This document shows, in pieces, positions 5,789 to 30,869 of a stretch of 33,224 nucleotides of DNA. Position 1 is the first letter of the stretch, and the number at the start of each line of letters is the position of its first letter. The notes under the pieces are model-generated. The model was not told where the DNA came from and did no database searches. It saw nothing but the letters and a program-made list of their open reading frames with translations. The stretch lies in the NCBI RefSeq assembly GCF_000423425.1, contig NZ_AUHY01000031.1, positions 1 to 33,224 of the forward strand, read 5' to 3'. A program made the position numbers and the translations under genes. The stretch comes from Meiothermus rufus DSM 22234. GTDB taxonomy: Bacteria; Deinococcota; Deinococci; Deinococcales; Thermaceae.

Positions 5789-8700
5789 CTAGCCCTCACT
5801 CCATGACTGGCGGATGACCAGGCCACCGGCCCGGGCCGCCTCGAGCACAGCCCGGCTGAGGGGGTTGTGCTCTAAAAAGCTGGAGCGCAGCTGGGGAGGA
5901 ACGTGGTGAAGGGCAATCTCTTCTAAGGCGTGCAGAACCTCCTGGAGCGAGGCCTGGCCCACCCGGCCCAAAGCGGCCTGGGCCTGGTGGTGCACCCAGC
6001 GCACCTCGAGCCGGGTGCAGCCCGTGGGCCAGCAGGTTTCCAGCCCGGCCATGGCCGCCTTGCTGCGGTATAGAGCCTCCTCCAGATGGCCCGGGGTGAG
6101 CCCGGGCTGCTCCAGCAAGACCCTGGCCCAGAGGGTCTGGGCGGCTATGCCCAGGGAGGGCCAGTCATTCTGCTGGGCCAGGGCCAAAGCTTCCTGGAGG
6201 CAGGGGAGGGACTGCTCGGGGGGGGTCAGGCGGGCTCGAGCCAGCAGATACCGGCCATAGGCCAGCCCCTGCCGTTCGGCAAACAACGCCTCCAGGCGCT
6301 CCAGCAAAGGAGCGACCGCCTGGCCTTGCCGGTGGGCCAGCAGGGCTTCCAGGATGCGGTAGGTGGCCTCGTCGCGCCGGGGCAGGTCGGGCGTGCCCAG
6401 GGCCTTGCCCAGCCAGTCGGTGGCCGGCCCCCACGCCCCCCATACCCAGTACAGACGGGCCATCTGATACTGGCTAAAAGCCCGCGTCCAGCCCCACTCC
6501 TCGGGCACCAAAGCCAGGGCCTCTTCCAGCACCTGCTGGGCTTCGGCGTAGCGCTCGAGGTCGTAGTAGCGCAGGGCCAGGTTGTTGAGGTGGTGCACCC
6601 TGCGGCCCAGCACGCCCTGCATCCCCTCGAGCAGGCGCTGGGCCTCGAGCTGGGCCTCCAGGGCCGCCTCGGCGTAGCCCAAAGCCGCCAGGCAGACCGC
6701 GCGGTTGTGGTGGAAACCTACCTGCACCAGGCGGTCGGCCGAGTGCCTCAGGGTGGGTTCGGCCTCCTGGTAAAAGGCCAGGGCCTGGCGGTGGCGCTCG
6801 AGCTGGTCGAAGGCAATGCCCAGCCTCGAGGTAGAGATGGCCACCTGCAATTCGTCGCCCTGGACCCGATGCATATCCCTTAGCTGCTCTAAGGCCGCAA
6901 TCAGATCGGGGGTTTTGCGCTGTACAAATAGCGACTGGGCCAGCGCATCCAGCAAGCGAACCCGCAGCTCGGGCGCCTCGGCCTGCTGGATGTATTCCAG
7001 CCCCTTGCGCGCCGCCGCTTCGGCCTCGGCCCCGAAGGCATGCTCCCCCAGGCGGATGGCCTCGCGCAGCCAGGCCCGGCCTTGTTTCTCGGGTGTATCG
7101 GCCAAGGCCAGCATTCGCTCGACCAAAGCCGCGTGGCGCTGGCCGGTATCGAAGCGAATCATGACCTGGCTCAGTGCCTCCAACAAGGCAAAAGCCTGCT
7201 CGCGCTCTCCCCCGGCTTCGGCGACCTCGAGGGCCTGCTGGTAAAACCCGGCCGCTTCGGAAAACTGGTAGGTGGCCTCGGCCTGCCGGGCCGCCTGAAG
7301 TAAGTAGGGAATGGCCCGCGAAGGCTCGCTCTCCAACCAGTGGCTGGCCATGCGGGCCGGGTGGGCCTGGCAGGTCTCCAGGAACTGCGCCACCTGGCGG
7401 TGCAGGTAAGCCCTAATGGGCGCGGGCAGCATCTCGTGAACGGCTTCGAAGAGCAGGTCGTGGGCAAAGCCGCTGCCATGGAGGATCTGGGCTCCCTCGA
7501 GTTCGGCCCAGGGCCCGGTCAGGGCCAGCAGGCTGGCCTGCATCACCGCAGCCGCCAGCTCAGGGCCGAGGTCGGTACCAGCTACGGCAGCCAGGCGAGC
7601 CAGGTTGAGCGCCGGAGGCGAGAGCCGTTCCAGGCACCGGGTGATAAGGGCCTTGACCTTGCCGGCCAAGGGCAGCCGCTCGAGCCTTCCACCCCTGATG
7701 CCTCCGGACTCCCAAAGGCTTTTGAGGGTCTCGAGCACAAAAAAGGGATTGCCCCCGGTGTAGCGTATCAGGGCCGGGGAAAGCGACTGCACCCCCTCCA
7801 CCTCGAGGCTGGCCAGCAGAGCTTCGACCTCGGCGGGCTGCAACGGCTCCACATCCAGCAACACCGCCAATCCCGCTTCGACCAGGGGAAAAAAGATGCC
7901 CTGCTCGATCTCGGCAGCCACCTCGCCGCGCCGGTAAATCTGGATGGTGAAGGGCGGCTGCCCCTTTCCCCCCACCGCGCCGTATTTGTTGAGCTGGTAG
8001 AGCATGGCCTCGAGGCTGGCCCGGTCGAGGTACTGGGCATCGTCGCTAACCTGAACGCTGGGCAGGTCGCCGCTGTGCGAGAGCAGGGTAATCTCGGCCA
8101 GCGCATCGTAAAAGCGCAATTTATCGGCTTCGGAAAGCATGGGCGGGGGGGGCATCCTGCGCCAGTTCTGGCAGGATGCGGGCCGCTTCGCAGCGCACCC
8201 AGGCTGGCAGGTTTTGCAGCAGCTCGGGCCGCTCGGCAAAGGATTCACGCAGGCTACGGGCGTAGCTCGAGTAGGGTATGGCCATGTCGCCCTGCCGGGC
8301 CGCCAGCAACACCACCCGTCCCTTGGATGCCGCAAAATCCATCGCCAGGCGGGTCTTGCCCACCCCCGGCTCGCCCCGCAAAAACACCACCTGGCCCTTC
8401 TGAAAGGCCTCTTCCATCTCTGCCCAGAGCCTTTCTCGCCCCACCAGAACCGGGGGGCGCAACAAGCTGAGGGGAATGGAAGGGCGCCGGGGGGCCACGC
8501 TTTGCCCCAGCCGCTCCCCCTGGGCGATTTGCTTGGCCAGGGCCTGGGTCTCGGGCAGCGGGGCTACCCCTAGCTCACGCTGCAAAAGTGCTTTGCAGCG
8601 ATGGTAAGCCCTGAGGGCTGCAGGCCGATCCCCACGCAGATACAAAAGCCGCATCACCCGGCGGTGGGCCACCTCCGAAAGCAGGTCCTGCTCCAGCAGC

Positions 8701-18521: not shown

Positions 18522-18550
18522 GAGGGCCCTTTCGGGCCCTCTGGTTTGCT
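18522..18550. terminator. Bidirectional terminator between pilT and the second subtilase
   Basis: GAGGGCCC (18522-18529) and GGGCCCTC (18534-18541) form a perfect 8-bp stem with a TTTC loop in the short gap between two convergent genes. The T-tract after it is weak on the plus strand (TGGTTTG). Confidence 0.65.
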
Positions 18551-18562
18551 CGAGTCAAGCGG

Positions 18563-21086
18563 TTAGTCTAAAGTGCACTGGTATACCTTGATGTCCGGCA
18601 GGCTACGGCTGCTCTCGTTACCCAGCGAGTCCCGGGCAATCAGGGTGAGGCGCACCACCTGGCCCTGGAAGCAGTCGTTGCCAAAATCGGCAAAACCACC
18701 GATCAGGTTGCTGGGGTTGTTCTGGCTGGGCGTCCAGTCCAGGTTGCCGCTGGTGGTGCTGGTGCTGAGGGTAACATTGCTGCGCCAGATCGCGGTGCTG
18801 CCAGGACGGAAGGAGGTAGCCCGCCAGATGTAGGTGATGGGGGTGTTGCCCTCGGGGTCGGTGGCGCTGGCGGGGGCGGTCAGGCGGGTGGTCCATCTGT
18901 ATCCGTCAGTGTAGTTAGGCGTGCTGGGGGACAGGCTGCCCAGGGTGATGCTGGGGGGCAGGTTGGCCGGGGCCGGGTTGATGGTAATGCTCACGCTGGC
19001 CGAGGCAGTAAGCCCCTGGGGGTCGGAGGCGCTAAGGGTCAGGGTGCGGGGGCCGGTGCTGCTGAAGGCAACCTCGGTATTGCAGCCCGTGCGGGGGAAG
19101 CCGGGGTCGCTGGGGTTGCTGCTGGTCCAGCGGCAAGCGATGGCGCCGGGGCCAGGGTCGGGGCCTTCGTTGAGGTCGGTGGCGCTGCCCAGCAACTGCA
19201 CGGTCTGCCCCACGAAGAAGGTGGCCCCGGCCGTGGGCTGGGAGATGGAGACCACCGGGGGCGTGTTGATGACGTTCACCGTCCGGCTCGTGCTACCCTC
19301 GCGGCCCAGGAGGTCGCGGGCCGTCACCCGCACAGTGCGGAGGCCTGCGGTGTTGAAGCGGTAGAAGGCGGTGTGGCCTGAAACCCGGCTGGGGGCGGGT
19401 TCCCAGGTCAGGGAGCAGGAGACCGGGGGGCAGTTGCTGCCGGCGAAGTCGGTCACGTTGGCGGTGACCGTCCACTCGCGGTTCAGGTCGGCGTTTTCAT
19501 GGGCGCTCAGGGCGATGCTGGGGCCGCTCTCGCCCACGGCCAGGGCCCTGGATACCGCTGCAAAGGCATTGACCCGGCGCTGATGGCCCGAGACCCCCAC
19601 GCCCCCCACATGGGCGGTGTCGCGCAGGATGGCCCAGACCTCGTTGGCCCTGAGCGAGGGGTTGGCAGCCCAGACCAGGGCGGCCACACCCGCCACAAAG
19701 GGCGAGGAATAGCTGGTGCCAGCCCGCAGACGGGCCTGGTTGTCGCGGTTGTCGGGGTCGTAACCGGTCCACAGCCAGAACGGCCCGTAGATGTCCACAC
19801 TGTTGTCGTCGCGCTTGCTGCCAAAGTTGGAGAATGGGTCGCGGGCGGTGGCGTCGTGGGCCATTCCACCCACACAGATCACGGAGCGCGACTCGCAGGG
19901 GATGTGGGTGGAACCCTCGATACCCCCCCCCCCCGTTGTCCACGTTTTTGCCTGCGTTTCCGGCTGAGGCAAAGAGAAGCTTGCCAGTGGCTGCAACCAT
20001 GGCGGTGAAACCATCCACCACCTCGCTGGGGGCGGGGCAAAGGAAAAGGCAGGCCGCCTTGACCGCAATGTCCCAGCCCAGGTCGAGCTCGAAGCCAAAG
20101 CTCATGTTGATGATTTTGGGGTTGCCAAAGACGGTAGCGGTGACGATGCGCTCGAGGGTGGAGATGATGCCGATGAAGTCTCCCTGAAAGGGCACCGCCA
20201 GAAGCTCGCCGACCGGGCCGGCGGGGCCTGCCACACCAAAGCCGTTGTCCGGGCGGCCCATGGCCGAGGTGGTGACGTGGGTACCGTGCCAGGGGCAGGG
20301 ACGGCCATCACTGCAGCTGAGCGCGTTGGGCTCGTTCCAGCTTCCCACGACCTCCCGGGTTTCGGGGAAGTCGCCGCTGGGGGCGAATCCTCCGTCCAAA
20401 ATCATGATGCGCACCCTGTTGCTAAGGCGTCCGGCCCGCTCGAGCAGCCGCCAGGCGTCGCCCACCCCAATATCCTGGGCGCTGCCCCGGCTCATGTAGG
20501 TCCACTGGAAAGCATCGGGGCTGTAGGCCACGTCGGGGGTCGCCGAGGAGGGGGCTTCGCTGGTGCTTCCTGTTGCAATAGCCCCAGGGGTGAACACAAA
20601 GTTGGGGGTGACGGTCATTTTTTCCTGGTTGGCCTCGGCCAGCGCCACTGCCAGCAGTTGGGCCGCCGCCGGGCTCGAGGTGCTAAAGCGGCCCTTCAGG
20701 TCGGGCAGGCTCTGGTTGAGGCGCTGCAGGATGGCCTCCACCTGGGCTGCCGAGGGGTCGAGCTGCACCTGGTAGGTTTTGGGGGCATCGCCTGCTTCGG
20801 TCTGAGAGATGATGCGCCCCCCCCAACGGGCCAGGAAGTTGTTGAGCTTGGTTTCATCGTTGGTGCTGACCACCAGCTCGCCCAGCACGAAGTCCATGGG
20901 AATACCGCTCTCGCCGACCATGCGGGCCAGGGGGCGGGGGGTTCCATCGGGGCCGGCCAGGCTGGGCTGGGCTGGGGTGAGGCTGCTATCCACCGGGATT
21001 TGCAGGGTTCCGCTGGGCTTGACCGAACCACAGGCAGCCAGCAAAAGTAGCGAGCTTACAAACAGGGCTTTCCAAAGGTGTTTCAC
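18563..21086 (-). pseudogene. Subtilisin-like (S8) protease lipoprotein, frame broken at a G12 tract
   Basis: Joined across one shift, this is an 840-aa exported protease. The start is the GTG at 21086, eight bases after AAGGAGG; the lipobox is LAAC (Cys19). A propeptide region follows, then the S8 domain: Asp231 in RIMILDGGFA, His267 in PWHGTHVTTS, Asn in ASAGNAGKN, and Ser458 in AGTSYSSPFVAG. After that come Ig/PKD-like repeats (for example PPVVSISQPTAGATFFVGQTV). Asp, His and Asn lie in the first frame and Ser in the second. The frames meet at a run of twelve G on the coding strand (19923-19934). Eleven G would read NGGGGIEGSTH continuously; with twelve the first frame runs 142 codons further to a stop at 19497. 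As read, no active protease is made without slippage. It is the last gene of the SARP-led run. Confidence 0.88.
19923..19934. repeat. 12-base C/G homopolymer inside the protease catalytic domain
   Basis: Twelve Cs on the plus strand (G12 on the coding strand). It is the longest homopolymer I see in the window and sits exactly where the reading frame of the S8 protease breaks. Tracts of this length are classic slipped-strand sites. Confidence 0.95.
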
Positions 21087-21164
21087 GGTCTTCCTCCTTA
21101 GGTCTCCGGGTGTTGTGCCCAAAGGTAGAAGCTGCGGGTTGAACGAGGTATGAACGCAATATGC

Positions 21165-21794
21165 CTACGGGCCCCTCAGGGCGACGCGGAAATGGGGCAG
21201 GGCCGGCTTACCCCCGCTGGGTCGGAAGAGCAGCAGCAACTTGGCGGGGGAGCCGGGGGTCTGGTTGTGGTCGCGCAGGCCAAAGCGCAGCACCACCGCG
21301 GCCCCGCCGCCAGGGGGAATCTTGTCGTACCTCTGGGTCCAGTCGGCAGCCTCCAGGATGTTGCCCTGGGCGTCCAGGAGCTGGACCTTATCCAGGCCGG
21401 TGGTGAGCAGGCTCTCGGGGGTGCGGGCCAGGTTGCGGAACTCCAGGCGCAGGCTGTAGCCGGGCCGGGAGGCAAAGAAGGGGTTGGGGGCAGGGGCCAC
21501 TTGCGAGGCCCGCACCCGCCAGACCCCATTGCTGAGCCAGTCGTCTTGCAGTCCCTCCACGGCCTCGACCCGCATCCGCCCCCCCACCGGCACGAACTGC
21601 ACCGACCAGCCGTCGGGCCGGCGGCTCACCTCGGCCCCGGCTTTTTGCAGGGCCTCGAGGGCCACGTAAACCTTGCCCTGGATCACCACCACCTCGGTGG
21701 TGCGGGCCCCGTTCAGGTAGACCGCCGGGATGCTGGCCGCCAGGCCCAGCAGGAGGGCCAAAGAAAGCCCCAAAAGGGTTAGGGTTCTTTTCAT
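21165..21794 (-). CDS. Exported protein with copper-amine-oxidase-N-like domain, function unknown
   Basis: A 209-aa protein with a clear signal peptide (MKRTLTLLGLSLALLLGLAASIPA). The next 45 residues, VYLNGARTTEVVVIQGKVYVALEALQKAGAEVSRRPDGWSV, have the layout of the copper-amine-oxidase N-terminal-like domain found in secreted proteins of Gram-positives and Thermus relatives. The remainder looks like a beta-sandwich with no recognised motif. It has GGAG a few bases before the ATG at 21794. It lies between two other exported-protein genes in the SARP-led run, 78 bp before the protease start. Confidence 0.82.
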   Translation of the reverse strand: MKRTLTLLGLSLALLLGLAASIPAVYLNGARTTEVVVIQGKVYVALEALQKAGAEVSRRPDGWSVQFVPVGGRMRVEAVEGLQDDWLSNGVWRVRASQVAPAPNPFFASRPGYSLRLEFRNLARTPESLLTTGLDKVQLLDAQGNILEAADWTQRYDKIPPGGGAAVVLRFGLRDHNQTPGSPAKLLLLFRPSGGKPALPHFRVALRGP

Positions 21795-21818
21795 ATCCTA
21801 CTCCTTAGGCAGCCATTG

Positions 21819-21847
21819 CGGGGTGGAGCTATCCAGGAAACACCCCG
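21819..21847 (-). promoter_or_regulatory. Intercistronic hairpin in the SARP-led run
   Basis: CGGGGTG (21819-21825) and CACCCCG (21841-21847) form a 7-bp stem just after the stop region of the 222-aa protein gene, with no U-tract. It may protect or partially terminate the transcript. Confidence 0.35.
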
Positions 21848-21850
21848 ACT

Positions 21851-22519
21851 TCAGTAAGCGGTGGGGAAGAAGGTCGCGGAGAGGCGTACCCGGTTGTACT
21901 CGACGGTGCCAAATGGGCCTCTTGCACCCATAAAGTAAAAGGTGTTGTTGCCAGCCACCACCGATAGCCGGGTCTGAACAGTCGTGGTGTGCCAATAAGA
22001 ACCCGTTGGAGCAGCGCTGGGGATCGAATCGATCTGTGCTATGCCTACGGCAACGGAGGTATTGACGGTGTTTATGCTGGTATAAGCGGTGGTGGGGTTC
22101 CCGCTGGTGTGTTTGAGTTCCAACGAAACCGTGCCGATAACCAGCACAAAGCCGCTGGCAGGGGCGTTAATTGTAATCGCTAGCATCTCGGTGGGGCTGG
22201 TGTCGAAGGCCCCGAGGGTGCCTCCGGTGTTGCTTTCGGTAAAAGCTACCCCTGGCTCGTCAACAATTTTGGCTGCACTGACGCTGTTGCTGGCCAGCTT
22301 GCTACTGGTGACGGCGTTATCGGCCAGTCGGGAGGCGCCTATGGGTGCCTCGAGGGCCTCTATCGCGCTACGCAGTGTGCTGAAATTACTGTTCACTTCG
22401 CTGGACTTAATTGGGGTGCCTGGTGCGAAGGTGGTAAGGCTGCCAACGCTTAGCGCATAGAGGCCAGTAGCGGCCAGGGTGAAGCCAAGTACTAGATATT
22501 TGAGGTTTTTGCCGTTCAT
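21851..22519 (-). CDS. Exported protein with fibre-like repeat segment, function unknown
   Basis: A 222-aa protein beginning with a signal sequence (LKYLVLGFTLAATGLYALSVG). Residues about 60-90 contain LADNAVTSSKLASNSVSAAKI, a spaced xNAVTSSKLA-type pattern common in phage tail-fibre-like and surface collagen-like proteins. The C-terminal 130 residues are Thr/Ser/Val-rich and probably a beta-sandwich of the kind seen in adhesin or tail-tip domains. There are no catalytic motifs. AGGAG precedes the ATG at 22519, which follows the 42-aa lipoprotein stop by 18 bp. A surface role is an inference from signal peptide and context. Confidence 0.82.
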   Translation of the reverse strand: MNGKNLKYLVLGFTLAATGLYALSVGSLTTFAPGTPIKSSEVNSNFSTLRSAIEALEAPIGASRLADNAVTSSKLASNSVSAAKIVDEPGVAFTESNTGGTLGAFDTSPTEMLAITINAPASGFVLVIGTVSLELKHTSGNPTTAYTSINTVNTSVAVGIAQIDSIPSAAPTGSYWHTTTVQTRLSVVAGNNTFYFMGARGPFGTVEYNRVRLSATFFPTAY

Positions 22520-22537
22520 GGGATTCTCCTGTCTGGC

Positions 22538-22666
22538 TTACTGCCAGGTGCTCTCGTCCCACTTGCTGTTGTCCCAGGTACCGCCCTGGGATCCACTGGG
22601 GCTCGAGCAGGCGCTGAAGGTAAGGCTCAGGATGAGGGCCAGTAAAACCCAAACACGCTTTCTCAT
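22538..22666 (-). CDS. Very small lipoprotein (42 aa) with W-D repeats
   Basis: The 42 codons from the ATG at 22666 encode MRKRVWVLLALILSLTFSAC, a complete lipoprotein signal with lipobox Cys20, and a mature part of only 23 residues. This contains GGTWDNSKWDESTWQ, with Trp every five residues. It starts 8 bp after the stop of the beta-propeller gene and ends 18 bp before the next start, so it sits tightly inside the operon. The signal sequence and its spacing argue that it is real despite its size. Function is unknown; it could be a membrane-bound partner of the adjacent secreted proteins. Confidence 0.72.
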   Translation of the reverse strand: MRKRVWVLLALILSLTFSACSSPSGSQGGTWDNSKWDESTWQ

Positions 22667-22674
22667 GGCCGTTC

Positions 22675-24015
22675 CTAGGGAAGCTTATGGAACAGCGGGA
22701 GGCCTGCTGGGGCCGGATAAAGGGCCAGGCCTCCAGCACTGCCAATGCTGGTGCTGGTAATAATCCGCTCGGGGGTGGTGGGGCTTCCTGAGGTGCTGCT
22801 GGTGGTGAGTTGTGTGGAGGAAAGCCGAGCGAACTTGCCCATAGAGTAGGTAATCCACAGCCCACCTCCTTCGTCGAAGGCCATGCCTTCCAGCAGGGCC
22901 GAGACTGGAACGCTGACCTGGATGGCTGGAGTAAGGGTCTTGGTGCCGCTGCCGCCCTGGTCGCTGGAGGTGAGCCGGTAGATGACATTGGCACCGAAGG
23001 CCATGCCCCACAGGTTGCCGGAGGCATCGAAGGCCAGCAGGTTGGCATCCAGGGTACTGATAACCGGGCTTGGGGTCTGGGACTGGATAGTCAGGTCGGG
23101 GCCGCTGGTGCTGGCGTTCAGACGACTGGCATTGAATTTGACCACACGCTTGGCGCCGGCGTTGGCAATCCAGAGGTTGCCCGCGCTGTCGAAGGCGAGG
23201 CCCTGTGGCCCATTCAGTCCGGTAATTTCCACCGCCGGTGTAACCGAACCCGAAGCGCCAAGCTGGGCCGTACTGACGCGCACAACCTTGTTGGCACAAG
23301 GCACGCTAACCCAGAGGTTGCCGCTGGCGTCGAAGGCCAGCCGGCTGGCCCCAGGCAAGCAGCTTATGCCAGAGATATTGATGCTACGGTCGCGGGTTTT
23401 GCTACCCGAAGCGCCCAGAACGCTGGCAGGGTAGCGGGCTAGGGTGGGGTCTACCGTAGTGCCCCCGATGCCCCAGAGGTTGCCATCTTGGTCGAAGGTG
23501 ATGTCGCGCATGCCGATGGTGCCGGCGCTCACGCTGGGGCTTTGGGTAGCGCTGCTGCCCAGCAGCGAGGCCGCAAAGCCCAGCAAGGGCGAGGCCCCAC
23601 TGGGCGGGTTGCCGTTGTCCATCCAGAGCTTGTTGCTGCTAGGGATCGGGGTGTAGCTAACATTGACCGTGGTGGCCTGGCCGTCCCGCACACAGGCTGG
23701 GCTGCCGGAGGCGCTGCCGCTGTAAGCCGTGCGGATGAGGGGGTCGCTATCGGCCACCTTTTTGACCACCACATCGTGAATTCCGGCAGCTTGACCGGTG
23801 AGGGTTTGCGTCGCTGTCAGGGTCTGGGTACCGCTGGGGCCTGTAACCTCTACGGCTGCATTGACCCCATCCGGCAGGCCCGAGATATTGACTATCAGAG
23901 TGCCCTGGCCTGTTGGGCTACAGCCGCCCGTCCCCCCAGAACCGCCGCCGGTTGGCCCGCCACAAGCCGCCAGCAGCCCAGCTACTGCTAAAAACCCGAA
24001 CCACGCTTTGTTCAT
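22675..24015 (-). CDS. Lipoprotein with NHL/SMP-30-like beta-propeller
   Basis: A 446-aa exported lipoprotein (MNKAWFGFLAVAGLLAAC, lipobox Cys18), then a Gly-rich spacer, a beta domain of about 100 residues containing LIVNISGLPDGVNAAVEVTGP, and a propeller. At least five blades are visible through the recurring phrase I/LAFDASGNLW (ITFDQDGNLWGIG, LAFDASGNLWVSV, LAFDSAGNLWIAN, LAFDASGNLWGMA, MAFDEGGGLWITY). Such propellers act as binding scaffolds or lactonase-like enzymes; no metal-site set could be assigned, so a binding role is more likely. The ATG at 24015 has GGAGGT before it. It lies in the SARP-led run, 24 bp after the 60-aa gene. Confidence 0.88.
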   Translation of the reverse strand: MNKAWFGFLAVAGLLAACGGPTGGGSGGTGGCSPTGQGTLIVNISGLPDGVNAAVEVTGPSGTQTLTATQTLTGQAAGIHDVVVKKVADSDPLIRTAYSGSASGSPACVRDGQATTVNVSYTPIPSSNKLWMDNGNPPSGASPLLGFAASLLGSSATQSPSVSAGTIGMRDITFDQDGNLWGIGGTTVDPTLARYPASVLGASGSKTRDRSINISGISCLPGASRLAFDASGNLWVSVPCANKVVRVSTAQLGASGSVTPAVEITGLNGPQGLAFDSAGNLWIANAGAKRVVKFNASRLNASTSGPDLTIQSQTPSPVISTLDANLLAFDASGNLWGMAFGANVIYRLTSSDQGGSGTKTLTPAIQVSVPVSALLEGMAFDEGGGLWITYSMGKFARLSSTQLTTSSTSGSPTTPERIITSTSIGSAGGLALYPAPAGLPLFHKLP

Positions 24016-24039
24016 TCCGCACCTCCTCTGCGCCGAGGT

Positions 24040-24222
24040 CTAGCACAGGCCGGAGGAACCCGGGGACCTTGGGGCAGGTGGGATCTGGCTCACCCGTTCC
24101 AGGTGGCGGATGAGGGAGGGCCAGTCGTGAAAGTAGCGAACCCGCTGGCTGTCCTTTAACTCAATCCGCAGTTGCCCCTCAGGGCTTTGTTCCACCTTGA
24201 GCAGGTAGACTCCCCGGCGCAT
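24040..24222 (-). CDS. Small protein (60 aa) coupled to the SARP-type regulator
   Basis: The start at 24222 lies 9 bp after the stop of the large regulator, suggesting translational coupling. The sequence reads as a short beta-beta-alpha unit: GVYLLKVEQSPEGQLRIELKD, then RVRYFHDWPSLIRHLERV, and a Pro/Ser tail. I do not recognise a named family. No signal peptide is present, so it is cytoplasmic. The position invites a role as a modulator of the regulator, but that is speculation. Confidence 0.65.
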   Translation of the reverse strand: MRRGVYLLKVEQSPEGQLRIELKDSQRVRYFHDWPSLIRHLERVSQIPPAPRSPGSSGLC

Positions 24223-24231
24223 ACCCGGAGG

Positions 24232-27200
24232 CTAGCGGGGGGGCGTTGCAAAAAGCGTTGCAAGAGTTTGGCGTTGAAGTTGGTAGAAGGCCTCGAGGGC
24301 AGGGTGGAACTCTGGGGGAAGCTCGGCCTTCTCCGCCTCGAGCCGCTGGGTAGCCCACTCGGCCAGGCCCGCCTCCCCCAGAACCTGGGCCCCGATCCAA
24401 AGGACCAGCTGGGGCCAGGGGCCAGTGTACCCCTCGAGGCCTTCCAAGGCCTCCTGGGCCCGCGCCCGGGCCTCAGCCAGCCTGCCCTCCCGCAGGGCTA
24501 GGGCAGCCAGCCAGGCGGCATCCAGGGGCCAGTCGGGCCGGTGGGCCTGGAGGGCCTCCTCCAGGAGGGGCCGGGCCTCGGCCAGCCGGTTTTGGAAGAG
24601 GAGGGCCACCCCGAGGTCGGCCTGGGCCTCGAGGCGGGTCTGGGGGAGGGCTTTGGTCTCGGCCAGGGCCTGGCGGAAATACCCCTCGGCCCGCCCAGGC
24701 TGGCCCTGCCAGAGCCAGACCTGGCCCAAAGCCATAGCCGACTCAGCCAGCCCCCGGGGCTCTTGGATGGCCTGGAAAACCTCGAGGGCCTCCTTAGCCC
24801 GCTCAGTGGCCTGGGCCAAGGCCCCAAAGCGCAGATACAGGCCCGCCAGGTTGATGGCCACCCCGGCCCGGAAGTGAACCCGGCCCAGCTCGGCGAAGTA
24901 GGCGTAGGCCTCCTGGTAGGCCAGGAGGGCCTGGGCGGGTTGCCCAAGCCGGGCATAGGCTAGGCCCAAGAAGTTCTGGTAAACCCCTAAAATCTCGCGA
25001 TAGCCCAGGGCCTGGGCCTCCCGGTAGGCCTGGGCCGCCACCGCCACCATCTCCTGGAGGGCCCCCTTGCGCAATAGCGCGGCGCAAACCATCTGCTTGA
25101 GGCGCACCTCGGCCAGGCCCGGGCTGCCCAGGCGGCGCAGATGCCCCAGCCACGCCTCTAAGGCCTCGTAGTCCTCCCGTAGCAAGGCCAGCTTGGCCAA
25201 GAGGTAGGCGGCCTCGGCCCGCAGGTTCCAGTCTCGCGTCCCTTCCCAGACCGCCAAGGCCTCCTCCCAGGCCCCGGCCTGGCCTAGGTTGGCCCGGGCG
25301 TCGGCCCGGTAGAGGCGGAGCCGGGGATGGGGCTCTAGGGCCAGAACCTCCTCAGCCAGGGCCAAGGCCTCGGCCCAGCGGCCCTGCATGGCTAAAAACC
25401 GCACCCGGCGGAAAGCCACCTCGGCCTGCTCTGCCGGGGTGAGCAGGGGGGCCAAGGCCTGGAGGCGCTCCAGCAGGGGGGCTTGCTCGGCGGGCCGGCT
25501 AAGGAGCATCCGGGCCTGCTCCAGGAGCAACAAAAGCCCAGCCTCCTCCGAGGCCCGGCCCGGGGCCTGCTGAAAGGCCTCCAAGGCCCGTCGGGCGTAC
25601 CCCTCGGCCTGAGCGAAGGCCTGCCGCCCTAAAGCGGCTTCAGCCAGCCCTTGGGCCAGGGGCCAGGCCTCCTGGAAGAGATGGGCGGCCTCGAGGTGGT
25701 AAAGCCGCTCCTCTTTTTCCCCGTTTTGGGCCAGGAGGAGGTGGAGGCCTGTCCTTTCTGGGCCTAAAGTGCCCAATACGGCCTGGCGGAAAAGCTCGTG
25801 GCCCAGGCGGTACCCCTCGAGGTCGGCGGCCACCAAGCCAGCCCGGACCAAGGCGTCCAACCTAGCCTGCAAGCGGAGGAGCTCCTCGCCTAGGAGGCTT
25901 TGAAGCCGGGCCAGGGGCAAAGGCCGGGGGGAGAGGGCCAGAAGCCGGGCCACCCCCAGGCCCTCCAGGGCCTCGAGGCGGCGCACCACCTCCTCCTGCA
26001 AGCTTTGCGGCAGGGGCAACTCGCGGTAGTCCTCGGTCTCTTGGTCGAAGGGGGTGTGCCAGCCCTGGGTGTCAGCCCAGAGCAGGCCCTCGGCGAAGAG
26101 GGATTCCAGAACCTTGACCAAAAACAAAGGATTCCCTCCAGTAGCCCGGTGTAGCCTTTGGGCAAAGCGCACCCCACCGCTGGGCATCCCCGAGGCCCGC
26201 CGGATGAGCTCGAGGGTAGCCGCCTCATCCAAAGGGGTCAGGCTGAGCCGCTCCAAGAGGCGATCCCGCTCGAGGTCCTGGAGCCAAGGCCCAAGGCGGG
26301 GTTCGGCCTCGGGGCGGGCGGTGAGGAGGAGGCGCACCCCCTGGGCCTGGGCCCGGCGCACCAGATAGGGCAAAAACTCTAGGCTGGCCGCATCGGCGTA
26401 GTGTACGTCTTCCCAGACCAGCCAGCCCCCCTTGAGTCCGTGGAGCAGGGCCTGGGCAAGCCCCTCGCGGAAGCGAGCCGGGGCCAGGGGGGCCTCGGCC
26501 TCGCTCAGGTTTGGGGGGGCTTCAGCCAGCTCGGGCACCAGCCGGGCAGCCTCCAGGCGCCAGGCCTCTGCGAGTCCCACGAACCTTTCCCCTTCCTCCC
26601 AAAGCCGCCTGAGGCTGGCCGCCAGGCCGCCGTAAACCACTTTTTCGTCCTGGGGCACCTGGTTGAGGAAGCGATAGACGGGCTGAGTCTGGACGAACTC
26701 CTGGACAAGCCGGCTCTTGCCCACCCCGGCCTCACCCAACAGCAGCACGGCTGGGGCGGTAGCCCAGGTCAGGGCCCGCCAGGCCGCCCCTCGCCCCACT
26801 AGGGGAGGGTGCCCCAGGGCTACCCGGGGCTGGCCTGGCAAAGGGGGAAGGGGCCGGCCCTCCTGGATGGCCCGGACCAACCCGGCCATCCCCGCCGAAG
26901 GGGCCAAGCCCAGTTCAGCCTTAAGCCCCTTGGCGTAGGCTTGGTAGCGCCGCAGGGCCTCGGCAGGTTGCCCGAGCCCCGCCAAGGCCCTGAGCAGGCC
27001 GCCTAAGCCCTCCTCGTTCCAGGGGTCACGCTGCAGAAGGGTGGAGAGGGGCGCTATGGCCTGGGCCAAAGCCCCAGCTTGAAGGAGTTCCAAGCCCCTT
27101 TGTAGCAGGGCCTCCTCGTACTGGGCCTCCAGCCGGGCCCGGGTCAGCTCGAGCCACTCCTCTAGGGGAGGCTCGGCAAAGGTCAACCCCTCTAAAAGGA

Positions 27201-27528
27201 TTCCCCGCCACAAGGCCAAAGCCTGGGCGTAACGCTGGGCGGAGAGGTGCTGTAAAAACTCAGCGACATCGCTTTGCAGGCTGAACCTGAGCTGGCCCTC
27301 TACCTCTTCCAACTCTAGGCCCGTCTGGCGCAATCGCACCAGCTCCCGCCGCAGGTTGGCCCGGGCCCGCTCCCCTTCCCAAAGCAGTCCAGCCAAGGCC
27401 TCACGATCCTGGGGGCCTTCCAAGGCCAGATAGGCCAGTAAGGCCCAGAGCTTGCGGGTAGGCAGCTCGAGGGCCCTCCCATCTTGCCAAAGCTCCGGGC
27501 AACCCAGCAACCGCAGGCGGAAGGACAC
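24232..27528 (-). CDS. SARP/BTAD-type transcriptional activator with AAA ATPase and TPR array
   Basis: An intact 1098-aa regulator in the style of the one broken at 5789-9215. An OmpR-like winged helix opens the protein (residues 1-90; LLAYLALEGPQDREALAGLLW), followed by BTAD (about 95-235), then the ATPase with Walker A GEAGVGKSRL (about 265) and Walker B-like WLVWEDVHYADAASLEF (about 370), TGGNPLFLVKVLESL, and about 500 residues of TPRs. This MalT-like architecture suggests ATP-dependent assembly with the TPRs sensing a partner or ligand. The GTG at 27528 is 6 nt downstream of TATACT, so the mRNA should be leaderless; the open frame to 27756 reads unlike protein. It heads the run of exported-protein genes and presumably controls them. 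Confidence 0.92.
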   Translation of the reverse strand: MSFRLRLLGCPELWQDGRALELPTRKLWALLAYLALEGPQDREALAGLLWEGERARANLRRELVRLRQTGLELEEVEGQLRFSLQSDVAEFLQHLSAQRYAQALALWRGILLEGLTFAEPPLEEWLELTRARLEAQYEEALLQRGLELLQAGALAQAIAPLSTLLQRDPWNEEGLGGLLRALAGLGQPAEALRRYQAYAKGLKAELGLAPSAGMAGLVRAIQEGRPLPPLPGQPRVALGHPPLVGRGAAWRALTWATAPAVLLLGEAGVGKSRLVQEFVQTQPVYRFLNQVPQDEKVVYGGLAASLRRLWEEGERFVGLAEAWRLEAARLVPELAEAPPNLSEAEAPLAPARFREGLAQALLHGLKGGWLVWEDVHYADAASLEFLPYLVRRAQAQGVRLLLTARPEAEPRLGPWLQDLERDRLLERLSLTPLDEAATLELIRRASGMPSGGVRFAQRLHRATGGNPLFLVKVLESLFAEGLLWADTQGWHTPFDQETEDYRELPLPQSLQEEVVRRLEALEGLGVARLLALSPRPLPLARLQSLLGEELLRLQARLDALVRAGLVAADLEGYRLGHELFRQAVLGTLGPERTGLHLLLAQNGEKEERLYHLEAAHLFQEAWPLAQGLAEAALGRQAFAQAEGYARRALEAFQQAPGRASEEAGLLLLLEQARMLLSRPAEQAPLLERLQALAPLLTPAEQAEVAFRRVRFLAMQGRWAEALALAEEVLALEPHPRLRLYRADARANLGQAGAWEEALAVWEGTRDWNLRAEAAYLLAKLALLREDYEALEAWLGHLRRLGSPGLAEVRLKQMVCAALLRKGALQEMVAVAAQAYREAQALGYREILGVYQNFLGLAYARLGQPAQALLAYQEAYAYFAELGRVHFRAGVAINLAGLYLRFGALAQATERAKEALEVFQAIQEPRGLAESAMALGQVWLWQGQPGRAEGYFRQALAETKALPQTRLEAQADLGVALLFQNRLAEARPLLEEALQAHRPDWPLDAAWLAALALREGRLAEARARAQEALEGLEGYTGPWPQLVLWIGAQVLGEAGLAEWATQRLEAEKAELPPEFHPALEAFYQLQRQTLATLFATPPR

Positions 27529-30035: not shown

Positions 30036-30869
30036 CTAAAGCCGCCCGCGGGTAAACCAGCGGGCCAGCAGGCTGGTCATCACAATAAGCCCCAGCAAAA
30101 CCACCGCCGCTGCCCAGGCCTGGCGGTGCCAGTCCTCGTAAGGGCTGATGGCATAGGCGTACAGGCGTAGGGGCAGAGCATCCATCGGCTGGCGCAGATC
30201 GAGGGTGAGAAGGGTGTTGCCAAAGGCGGTAAAAATAAGGGGGGCGGCCTCCCCCGCCGCCCGGGCCGTGGCCAGCAGCAATCCGGTCACCACCCCACCC
30301 CGGGCCGCCGGCAAAACCAGCGACAGGATCACCCGCCAGCGGGGCAGGCCTAGGGCTAGCCCAGCCTCGCGGATGTGCCAGGGCACCAGCTTCAGCACAC
30401 TTTCCGTGGTCTTGGCGATGATGGGCACCATGATAAAAGCCATGGCCAAGGCCCCAGAAAGGCCGGAGAAGGAACCCTGGGTCTTGACCACCAACACGTA
30501 GGCCAGAAGGCCCTTCAGGATGGCGGGCATTCCGTTGAGGGTGTCGGAAAGCGGGCGCAAGGTGGGGTTGAGCCGGTTATCGGGGTACTCGGCCAGCAGA
30601 ATGCCCGCCCCGATACCGAAGGGCATGGCGATGAGCAAACCCGTACCGGTGATGACCAAAGTGCCCACGATGGCTGGGGCCATCCCCCCCCCCAGTTCGC
30701 CGGGAGGCTTGGGGCCCTTGGTGAAGAAGTCCCAGTTGAGGGAGGAAAAACCATTGACCAAAGCATAGCCTAGCACCAAAGCCAGCGGCAAAGCGGCCAG
30801 AATGGTGCCGATGACAACCACCAACAGGATCAGGCGGTCGCGGGCGTAGCGGGCTTGCAGGCTGCGCAT
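30036..30869 (-). CDS. pstA: Phosphate ABC transporter permease PstA
   Basis: A 277-aa membrane permease with about six helices; the binding-protein-dependent transport core is seen in IVGTLVITGTGLLIAMPFGIGAG and the EAA-type loop in IREAGLALGLPRWRVILSLVLPAARGGVVTG. It pairs with PstC to form the channel. The ATG at 30869 has AGGAG before it; the open frame to 30896 overlaps only the Shine-Dalgarno and the end of pstC. The conserved LGGGMAPAIVG is encoded through a run of ten G on the coding strand (30684-30693), in frame here but a possible slippage site. Confidence 0.97.
   Translation of the reverse strand: MRSLQARYARDRLILLVVVIGTILAALPLALVLGYALVNGFSSLNWDFFTKGPKPPGELGGGMAPAIVGTLVITGTGLLIAMPFGIGAGILLAEYPDNRLNPTLRPLSDTLNGMPAILKGLLAYVLVVKTQGSFSGLSGALAMAFIMVPIIAKTTESVLKLVPWHIREAGLALGLPRWRVILSLVLPAARGGVVTGLLLATARAAGEAAPLIFTAFGNTLLTLDLRQPMDALPLRLYAYAISPYEDWHRQAWAAAVVLLGLIVMTSLLARWFTRGRL

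Follow-up and report, generated by a model that had tools for sequence, protein, structure and literature searches.

A seven-gene locus of Meiothermus rufus headed by a SARP regulator as a candidate member of a multi-copy surface-fibre family in Thermaceae

Seven consecutive genes of Meiothermus rufus DSM 22234, headed by a large SARP-type regulator, raise the question whether these neighbours belong together and what they may do at the cell surface. The window (the whole stretch of DNA that was analysed) comprises 33,224 nucleotides, in which the following features were delineated.

24232..27528, minus strand: SARP/BTAD-STAND-TPR regulator, 1098 aa, GTG start; Pfam matches to BTAD, AAA_16 and TPR_12
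24040..24222, minus strand: p60, 60 aa, without signal peptide; aligned family linked to SARP genes, its genome matches clustering at BTAD genes
22675..24015, minus strand: NHL/beta-propeller lipoprotein, 446 aa; Pfam match to NHL
22538..22666, minus strand: lip42, 42-aa lipoprotein with the C-terminal GTWDNSKWDESTWQ; family alignment
21851..22519, minus strand: x222, exported fibre-like protein, 222 aa; N-terminus common with Peptidase_S74 or collagen-repeat fibres
21165..21794, minus strand: x209, exported protein, 209 aa, fold unknown; relatives 3' of S8 and x222 genes
19923..21086, minus strand: 5' part of the S8 protease lipoprotein, with Asp and His of the triad; Peptidase_S8, 6e-6
18563..19933, minus strand: 3' part of the S8 protease in another frame, with Ser of the triad (motif positions) and Ig-like domains; Peptidase_S8, 2.8e-12
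19923..19934, minus strand: run of 12 G on the coding strand, frame switch and candidate slippage site; whole-genome G-run count
18522..18541, minus strand: 8-bp GC-rich hairpin, candidate terminator; fold z -2.96

Gene order and conserved blocks

An earlier note on this DNA had described a seven-gene run on a single strand. Rechecking of the coordinates gave the same order, on the minus strand, and the six gaps of 9, 24, 8, 18, 56 and 78 bp were reproduced exactly. The domain calls of that note agree with Pfam (BTAD, AAA_16 and TPR, NHL, Peptidase_S8). Its count of three lipoproteins also stands, with lipobox-like signals, as judged by eye, in the NHL protein (LLAAC), in lip42 (FSAC) and in the S8 protease (LAAC). 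The protease is however not one open reading frame, since its Asp/His and Ser halves lie in different frames. The candidate terminator hairpin (18541-18522), a stable one, is located beyond the last stop codon, as revealed by strand folding, and was not picked up by a T-run-based terminator scan.

Several other candidates were set aside. A search of the stretch in Rfam gave no match, which disfavoured a riboswitch or structured RNA leader; the tRNA scan found no tRNA for a tRNA-linked island, and PADLOC returned only weak matches for a defence system. One sigma-70 promoter was predicted inside the run vs 0.8 expected.

The neighbourhood is conserved as blocks, namely SARP-p60, lip42-fibre and propeller lipoprotein-S8. 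These blocks recur in many loci of relatives, indicating that the locus is beyond chance and that the neighbours belong together, as the earlier note held. The order SARP-p60-NHL is kept in four of the five loci of the closest SARP orthologues (L044, L133, L134 and L136, not L135), and the order SARP-p60-lip42-x222-x209 in 11 other loci, which is a count and not a frequency since the loci examined were picked for having matches. In one genome (G002), all seven families stand side by side in one run, in a different order (L039/L127). The outcome that the earlier note had named as refuting, an order kept by no relative, was thus not observed.

We give an even chance to the reading that the seven genes form one locus of a multi-copy, SARP/p60-controlled surface-fibre family in Thermaceae, in which the micro-lipoprotein serves the fibre while propeller and protease act on the surface. 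The earlier note had proposed a self-regulated extracytoplasmic complex with the protease as processing enzyme. The conserved linkage bears out that the neighbours form a set, and a named system of such composition was not found in the literature either; the role given to the protease found no direct support, and the sequenced allele is frameshifted. p60 and lip42, the two small proteins that the earlier note had passed over, proved the most informative of the set.

The SARP regulator and its 60-residue companion

The BTAD domain of the regulator (PF03704) was matched with an E value of 6e-20 and 72.5 bits, the cut-off being 22.1, and the STAND/NOD ATPase (AAA_16, 6e-12) and TPR (TPR_12, 2e-14) parts are both above cut-off. 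Residues 1-95 gave no Pfam DNA-binding match; their length and position fit an OmpR-type N-terminal domain. Full-length relatives with 51-60% identity are found in four genomes (G020, G007, G011 and G014). Upstream of the gene, the best pair of direct repeats reaches 76% at a distance of 43 nt; an operator at this place was set aside, as no clear direct repeats of the SARP type, which lie one or two helical turns apart at the target promoter, were found there. A second SARP gene within the window is broken.

No Pfam family matches p60. Its predicted fold is beta-beta-beta-alpha (pLDDT 78.5), for which Foldseek gave no significant match. The best VIA-align hit (Z 4.3, 47 residues, 2.6 A) ties with many unrelated small domains, and no fold family is therefore claimed. 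By sequence, no solved structure was significantly related to the SARP, p60 or x222. Out of 101 p60 rows, 19 served as profile seeds and 82 were tested; at least 40 of these 82 independent matches have a listed BTAD match at a distance of 4 kb or less, vs 1.7 expected. Such BTAD adjacency counts are lower bounds because 150 of 205 BTAD matches are listed, and the expected numbers assume independent rows while many rows are orthologues, so that the p values overstate the significance.

Across 27 non-redundant loci, the sequence distances of p60 and SARP correlate with r = 0.80, a value that none of 5000 permutations reached; for 27 pairs of paralogues from the same genome, r is 0.85. Between linked genes, such co-divergence is evidence of a common history and not of contact. 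In the preferred reading, the regulator, with its DNA-binding/BTAD part, STAND ATPase, TPR sensor and AfsR-like build, would activate its own transcript in response to a signal perceived by the TPR part. Through contact with the regulator or with the transcription complex, p60 would set this switch, and the genes behind the pair would supply a set of envelope-exposed proteins.

The pair resembles AfsR-AfsS of Streptomyces coelicolor, where a SARP, NOD/STAND and TPR regulator of about 1000 aa goes with a protein of about 60 aa (excerpts of PMC6988585 and PMC10936776). According to the same excerpts, AfsR (993 aa, SARP-NOD-TPR) activates afsS, the product of which has 63 aa. By analogy, the SARP could mainly drive p60, which as a second, small regulator would in turn control unlinked genes in trans, with the surface genes as passengers. 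Such a cascade would fit the constancy of p60 in front of varying genes, but we consider it improbable. AfsS carries three 12-aa repeats (excerpt of PMC2267785), whereas by inspection p60 has none and is predicted to adopt the fold given above. Moreover, the exported genes stay beside the SARP far above chance. The locus also departs from AfsR-AfsS in that the neighbours of the SARP are exported proteins and lipoproteins rather than antibiotic genes, and in that many paralogous copies exist per genome.

In the literature surveyed, large SARP regulators are studied almost wholly as antibiotic switches of Streptomyces. In the present loci, the regulators of one such family share an unvarying small partner and stand in front of sets of surface genes. 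A known biofouler, M. silvanus, belongs to the same genus and is said to adhere via thread-like organelles (excerpt of PMC3035272). p60 may offer a handle on the tuning of STAND-SARP activators.

The micro-lipoprotein and the fibre-like protein

Alignment of the lip42 family revealed an invariant WD.S.WD...WQ tail. To our knowledge, a 42-aa lipoprotein partner is part of no known fibre family. From 35 rows covering the C-terminal half at E <=1e-6, 14 were seeds and 21 were tested. In 17 of these 21 independent matches, spread over five families of the order, the lip42 gene is located 11-85 bp 5' of an x222-type gene, and in two of the four exceptions (L224 and L226) a profile search also detected an x222-type gene. 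In the stretches read, lip42-x222 pairs outside Thermaceae mostly have no SARP nearby.

Within the genus, at least 20 of 27 x222 rows have a same-strand BTAD gene no more than 6 kb to their 5' side, vs 0.95 expected; the 27 were taken from 40 rows, the 13 omitted being second copies or fragments in counted loci. When only the three near-closed genomes were considered, at least 7 of 11 x222 genes were found near BTAD vs 0.42 expected.

No Pfam domain was detected in x222. Its N-terminus is common to homologues with Peptidase_S74 chaperone domains (3 of 9) or collagen repeats (1 of 9), as in chromosomal fibres of these types, but x222 itself carries neither domain. Weak matches to phage tail fibres were obtained (phrog tail fibre, 2.6e-5; tail-fibre-like protein of phage S-TIP37, E 3e-3). 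The single-sequence model was poor (pLDDT 42.8) and was set aside. Relatives of x209 occur 3' of S8 genes and 3' of x222 genes in many loci.

With regard to these matches, the locus could be the remnant of a phage tail or extracellular contractile injection system (eCIS), with x222 as fibre and the SARP gene as regulator, and BTAD and Peptidase_S74 are indeed given as shell domains of eCIS loci in an excerpt of PMC8213781. The tail-tube family PF06841 is however missing in 17 of the 18 genus genomes searched, including that of M. rufus itself (it is present in 5 of 37 genomes overall), while lip42/x222/SARP loci are abundant in the genus, and no ORF of the window stood out as a structural tail gene. 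This origin was set aside as highly improbable.

In the reading as a surface-fibre locus, lip42 would be exported and lipid-anchored, and its tail would dock x222 at the surface or help to assemble it, x209 being a further exported factor. A wider proposal is put forward tentatively and is on the whole unlikely to hold in full. It would define a new class of bacterial surface-fibre system, in which a mature micro-lipoprotein of about 20 residues ending in the conserved tail would serve as a general means of docking or assembling phage-tail-like fibres across this order of Deinococcota. In Thermaceae, the fibres would come from many paralogous loci, each with its own STAND-SARP sensor and p60 modulator, and a slipping G tract would switch a surface-processing protease in the strain. 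The lip42/fibre pair would provide a short, testable peptide for the question how such fibres hold to the cell.

The propeller lipoprotein and the split protease

The propeller lipoprotein (NHL, 1.3e-6 in Pfam) has orthologues up to 83% identical. The first frame of the S8 gene (21086-19497) encodes a 529-aa product with the Asp (ILDGG) and His (HGTHV) motifs and without the Ser motif. The latter (GTSYSSP) and the Ig-like C-terminus, in which a weak Big_7 match was obtained besides Peptidase_S8, follow in another frame ending at 18563. All three triad motifs of subtilases are hence present, but not in one polypeptide. Like subtilases with an N-terminal prodomain, the protein shows a Fervidolysin-type prodomain match, which is weak and under cut-off; unlike them, it is a lipoprotein whose coding sequence changes frame at a G run in this genome.

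The switch sits on the run of 12 G (19934-19923), the sole run of at least 11 G in the 2.74-Mb genome. Orthologues up to 84% identical each have a single open frame, and those examined at this site display a short glycine stretch with GGC or GGT codons and no G run. A long homopolymer that sets the frame within a coding region is a feature of contingency genes. In pilus clusters of Bifidobacterium breve, too, a long intragenic G run in a surface gene decides the frame by slippage (excerpt of PMC9187656); in contrast to that case, the run is known here from one genome sequence and seen in no orthologue, and the switch is therefore a proposal only. The protease of the sequenced cells is out of frame at a run that can be expected to slip, so that it may have lost its activity or be able to turn it on and off.

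Poor assembly is disfavoured as cause of the frameshift by the finding of two candidates in a 396-kb sample of the genome, neither at a long run (8 in 676 kb of relatives), although the detector would not reveal whether the 12 G of the run had themselves been miscounted. It is also blind to switches whose first frame soon stops, missing one near 8140.

Of 20 loci, 12 have the NHL gene 5' of the S8 gene, and in 10 of these 12 (the exceptions being L039 and L044) the two stand together without same-strand SARP or lip42/x222 genes, suggesting that the SARP/fibre and NHL/S8 blocks may be functionally separate. It is thus conceivable, if rather unlikely, that two units adjoin here: a fibre block SARP-p60-lip42-x222-x209 and an independent NHL-S8 pair split around it by chance. 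The protease would then stand outside the fibre system, as a pseudogene in decay or as the result of a homopolymer counted wrongly. The broken frame, as well as the likewise broken second SARP gene, is in line with this possibility. On the other hand, G002 also joins both blocks in one run, and L044 consists of SARP-p60-NHL-S8 with a protease 80% identical. In addition, both protease halves stay open and resemble relatives outside the G run, and frameshift candidates are rare, as described above. In the three near-closed genomes alone, at least 4 of 22 S8 genes lie near BTAD vs 0.77 expected; for genomes G000-G015, 103 S8 rows were entered from 150 listed (165 matches in these genomes).

If the seven genes act as one locus, propeller lipoprotein and protease would form a second block for the binding and cleavage of proteins at the surface, among them perhaps the fibre. 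A plasmid of Meiothermus taiwanensis WR-220 carries a full SARP-p60-lip42-fibre locus; in an equivalent locus on a plasmid of this species, the five genes behind the regulator are publicly annotated as 'hypothetical protein'.

Gene run and its recurrence in relatives

The seven genes of the run occupy positions 27528 to 18563 of the minus strand, with the intergenic gaps of 9, 24, 8, 18, 56 and 78 bp that the earlier note had reported. In order, they encode a SARP/BTAD-STAND-TPR regulator (SARP), a 60-aa protein (p60), a beta-propeller lipoprotein (NHL), a 42-aa lipoprotein (lip42), a fibre-like 222-aa protein (x222), an exported 209-aa protein (x209) and an S8 protease. The Pfam domains of the first protein were BTAD, AAA_16 and TPR; the third contains NHL repeats, and the last gene gave Peptidase_S8 as two separate pieces. 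No Pfam family was obtained over the cut-off for the 222-, 209-, 60- and 42-aa proteins. Two further features were located in the last gene and behind it:

19934-19923, minus strand: run of 12 G, site of a frame switch in the S8 gene
18541-18522, 3' of the last stop codon: GC-rich hairpin of 8 bp (z -2.96)

The neighbourhood is conserved: block order recurs in relatives, and the outcome named in the earlier note as refuting, an order conserved in no relative, did not occur. The succession SARP-p60-lip42-x222-x209 was present in 11 other loci (L117, L118, L121-L128, L230) of nine genomes, the fibre gene adjoining lip42 in L230 looking incomplete. In genome G002 (L039, L127), all seven families form one run, NHL-S8-SARP-p60-lip42-x222-x209. 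The families are identical to those of the window but their order differs, as the window has NHL between p60 and lip42 and the S8 gene last. Full-length relatives of SARP with 51-60% identity were detected in G020, G007, G011 and G014, and a relative with 51% identity in G036. In four of these five loci (L044, L133, L134 and L136; not L135), p60-type and NHL genes follow the regulator. L044 shows the order SARP-p60-NHL-S8, with a protease 80% identical to that of the window. Of the 20 loci collected around relatives of S8, 12 have NHL upstream of S8 in the same orientation. In several of these loci x209-type genes come after S8 genes; elsewhere they come after x222 genes. S8 matches as a whole were enriched near BTAD genes (21 of 103 within 6 kb; 2.9 expected). 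The arrangement is real and conserved.

In the open-licence literature, no paper on such a system in Meiothermus, Thermus or Deinococcus was found (SARP/BTAD/AfsR, subtilisin-like lipoprotein, tail fiber). p60 has no name in Pfam, NCBIfam, PHROGs and PADLOC, and lip42 gave only matches of signal-peptide type in Pfam, NCBIfam and PHROGs. The run is probably an unnamed system, made of parts of known kinds and of two small protein families that are nameless in the libraries used. M. taiwanensis WR-220 has an equivalent locus on its plasmid pMtWR-220, where the public annotation gives a BTAD regulator and, behind it, five hypothetical proteins. This locus (L233) reads SARP-p60-lip42-fibre, with an S8 peptidase gene and a PhoX phosphatase gene upstream. 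Since one of them is plasmid-borne, loci of this kind may move.

Small proteins and fibre-like protein

Many other SARP genes have a gene for a p60 relative of 50-70 aa behind them. A p60 profile built from 22 small proteins matched no Pfam family and gave 101 matches in 21 of 25 genomes. After exclusion of the seeds, 82 matches remained; 40 of them had a BTAD match, among the 150 listed, no more than 4 kb away (1.68 expected), and 50 had one within 10 kb (4.2 expected). A search of the phylum, covering 111 genomes and 31 genera, detected p60 in 56 genomes and 19 genera. The distance matrices of p60 and SARP were correlated over 27 non-redundant loci (r = 0.80; none of 5000 permutations as high). 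The species tree does not explain this correlation, because 27 same-genome paralogue pairs gave r = 0.85. Shared inheritance of the linked pair suffices to account for it, and no contact is implied. The AlphaFold2 model of p60 from a single sequence predicted a beta-beta-beta-alpha fold (core pLDDT near 90), with which a structural search returned no significant match.

Relatives of lip42 of about 38-50 aa occupy the equivalent position in other loci. The tail WD.S.WD...WQ, which is the C-terminus of the protein, was invariant in 14 aligned members. A profile search of 61 genomes yielded 35 strong matches covering the tail region. Among the 21 non-seed matches, 17 precede, by 11-85 bp, an x222-type gene that had been found independently, and for two of the remaining four (L224, L226) such a gene was also located by profile search. 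The lip42-x222 pairs span five families of the order. In pairs from beyond Thermaceae, the tail is variable (e.g. WN.S.WN...WK), with the tryptophan pattern kept in most.

An N-terminus of roughly the form FxxGxxIxxxxVNxNF is common to the x222-type proteins, which are divergent in the rest. Nine homologues displayed Peptidase_S74 (three), collagen repeats (one), DUF7452 (one) or no Pfam domain over the cut-off (four). x222 of the window, for which the Pfam scan gave no domain, matched a tail-fibre phrog (2.6e-5) and, at E 3e-3, a cyanophage protein of tail-fibre-like type. We infer that x222 is a surface fibre. In the genus, 20 of 27 x222 matches have a BTAD gene no more than 6 kb away, x222 being in each case the downstream gene on the same strand (0.95 expected). 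The fibre-like proteins appear to be modular, with a common base and exchangeable heads. In L224, L227, L216, L218, L225 and L232, the x222 N-terminus is joined to differing heads, whether an S74 chaperone, collagen repeats or a long region unnamed in Pfam. In L229 (G013:C2), a lip42 gene (2807-2923) stands behind SARP-p60, after a gene for a 317-aa lipoprotein-like protein; no x222 gene was detected in the stretch read.

Proposed working of the locus

AfsR, which has the same layout as SARP of the window, is reported in the accessible text of two papers to bring RNA polymerase to the promoter that serves a gene for a 63-aa protein (PMC10936776, PMC6988585). By analogy, the TPR part of SARP may sense a signal upon which the regulator would switch on its own locus. 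p60 is without the AfsS repeats as described in the accessible part of PMC2267785 and was therefore not filed as AfsS; a modulator binding SARP is the preferred guess. lip42 might keep the fibre in place or assemble it; surface proteins may be the target of the propeller/protease pair.

Frame switch in the protease gene and second SARP locus

The S8 protease was present as the last gene where the earlier note had placed it, but in two frames and not in one. The frame from 21086 carries the lipobox and the Asp and His motifs, giving a product of 529 aa without the Ser motif, which lies with the Ig-like tail in a different frame. Relatives have a single open frame; at the site of the 12-G run they show either a short glycine stretch encoded as GGC or GGT or a stretch unrelated to it. 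Open frames of 839-925 codons are present in the nearest relatives (79-84% identical), with the exception of G015, where the contig ends, and G012, where the gene is interrupted. Slipping at the run could turn the protease on and off, as a G tract switches pili in Bifidobacterium breve according to the accessible text of PMC9187656, or the run may mark decay. Alternatively, it may be a homopolymer miscounted in the assembly. A whole-genome scan of both strands revealed no other run of at least 11 G. A frameshift detector gave two candidates in a 396-kb sample of the own genome, neither at a long run, versus eight in 676 kb of relatives; overall, the assembly is thus not of poor quality. A ten-C run at 30684-30693 lies in a pstA-like gene open in one frame; long runs in the window therefore do not always disturb a gene.

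A second SARP gene of the window (9215-5789, minus strand) is directly followed by another S8 gene (5649-3493, minus strand). In Meiothermus relatives, this second locus type (L119, L120, L137, L140, L144, L147, L148) consists of a second-type SARP, behind which come S8, a long propeller-like protein or both; a p60-type gene is located far downstream (about 5-9 kb), beside further lipoprotein genes. Its rear half (p60-type gene, lipoproteins, YVTN-like protein) was recognized in L202 (G000:C16, 2768-9261) of the own genome; the 16-kb stretch read there yielded no SARP gene. The coding sequence of the second SARP of the window falls into two frames, with the break near 8140 at a C run; in relatives it is a single gene encoding about 1112-1145 aa. 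Thus, both SARP/S8 loci of the window contain a frame switch at a homopolymer.
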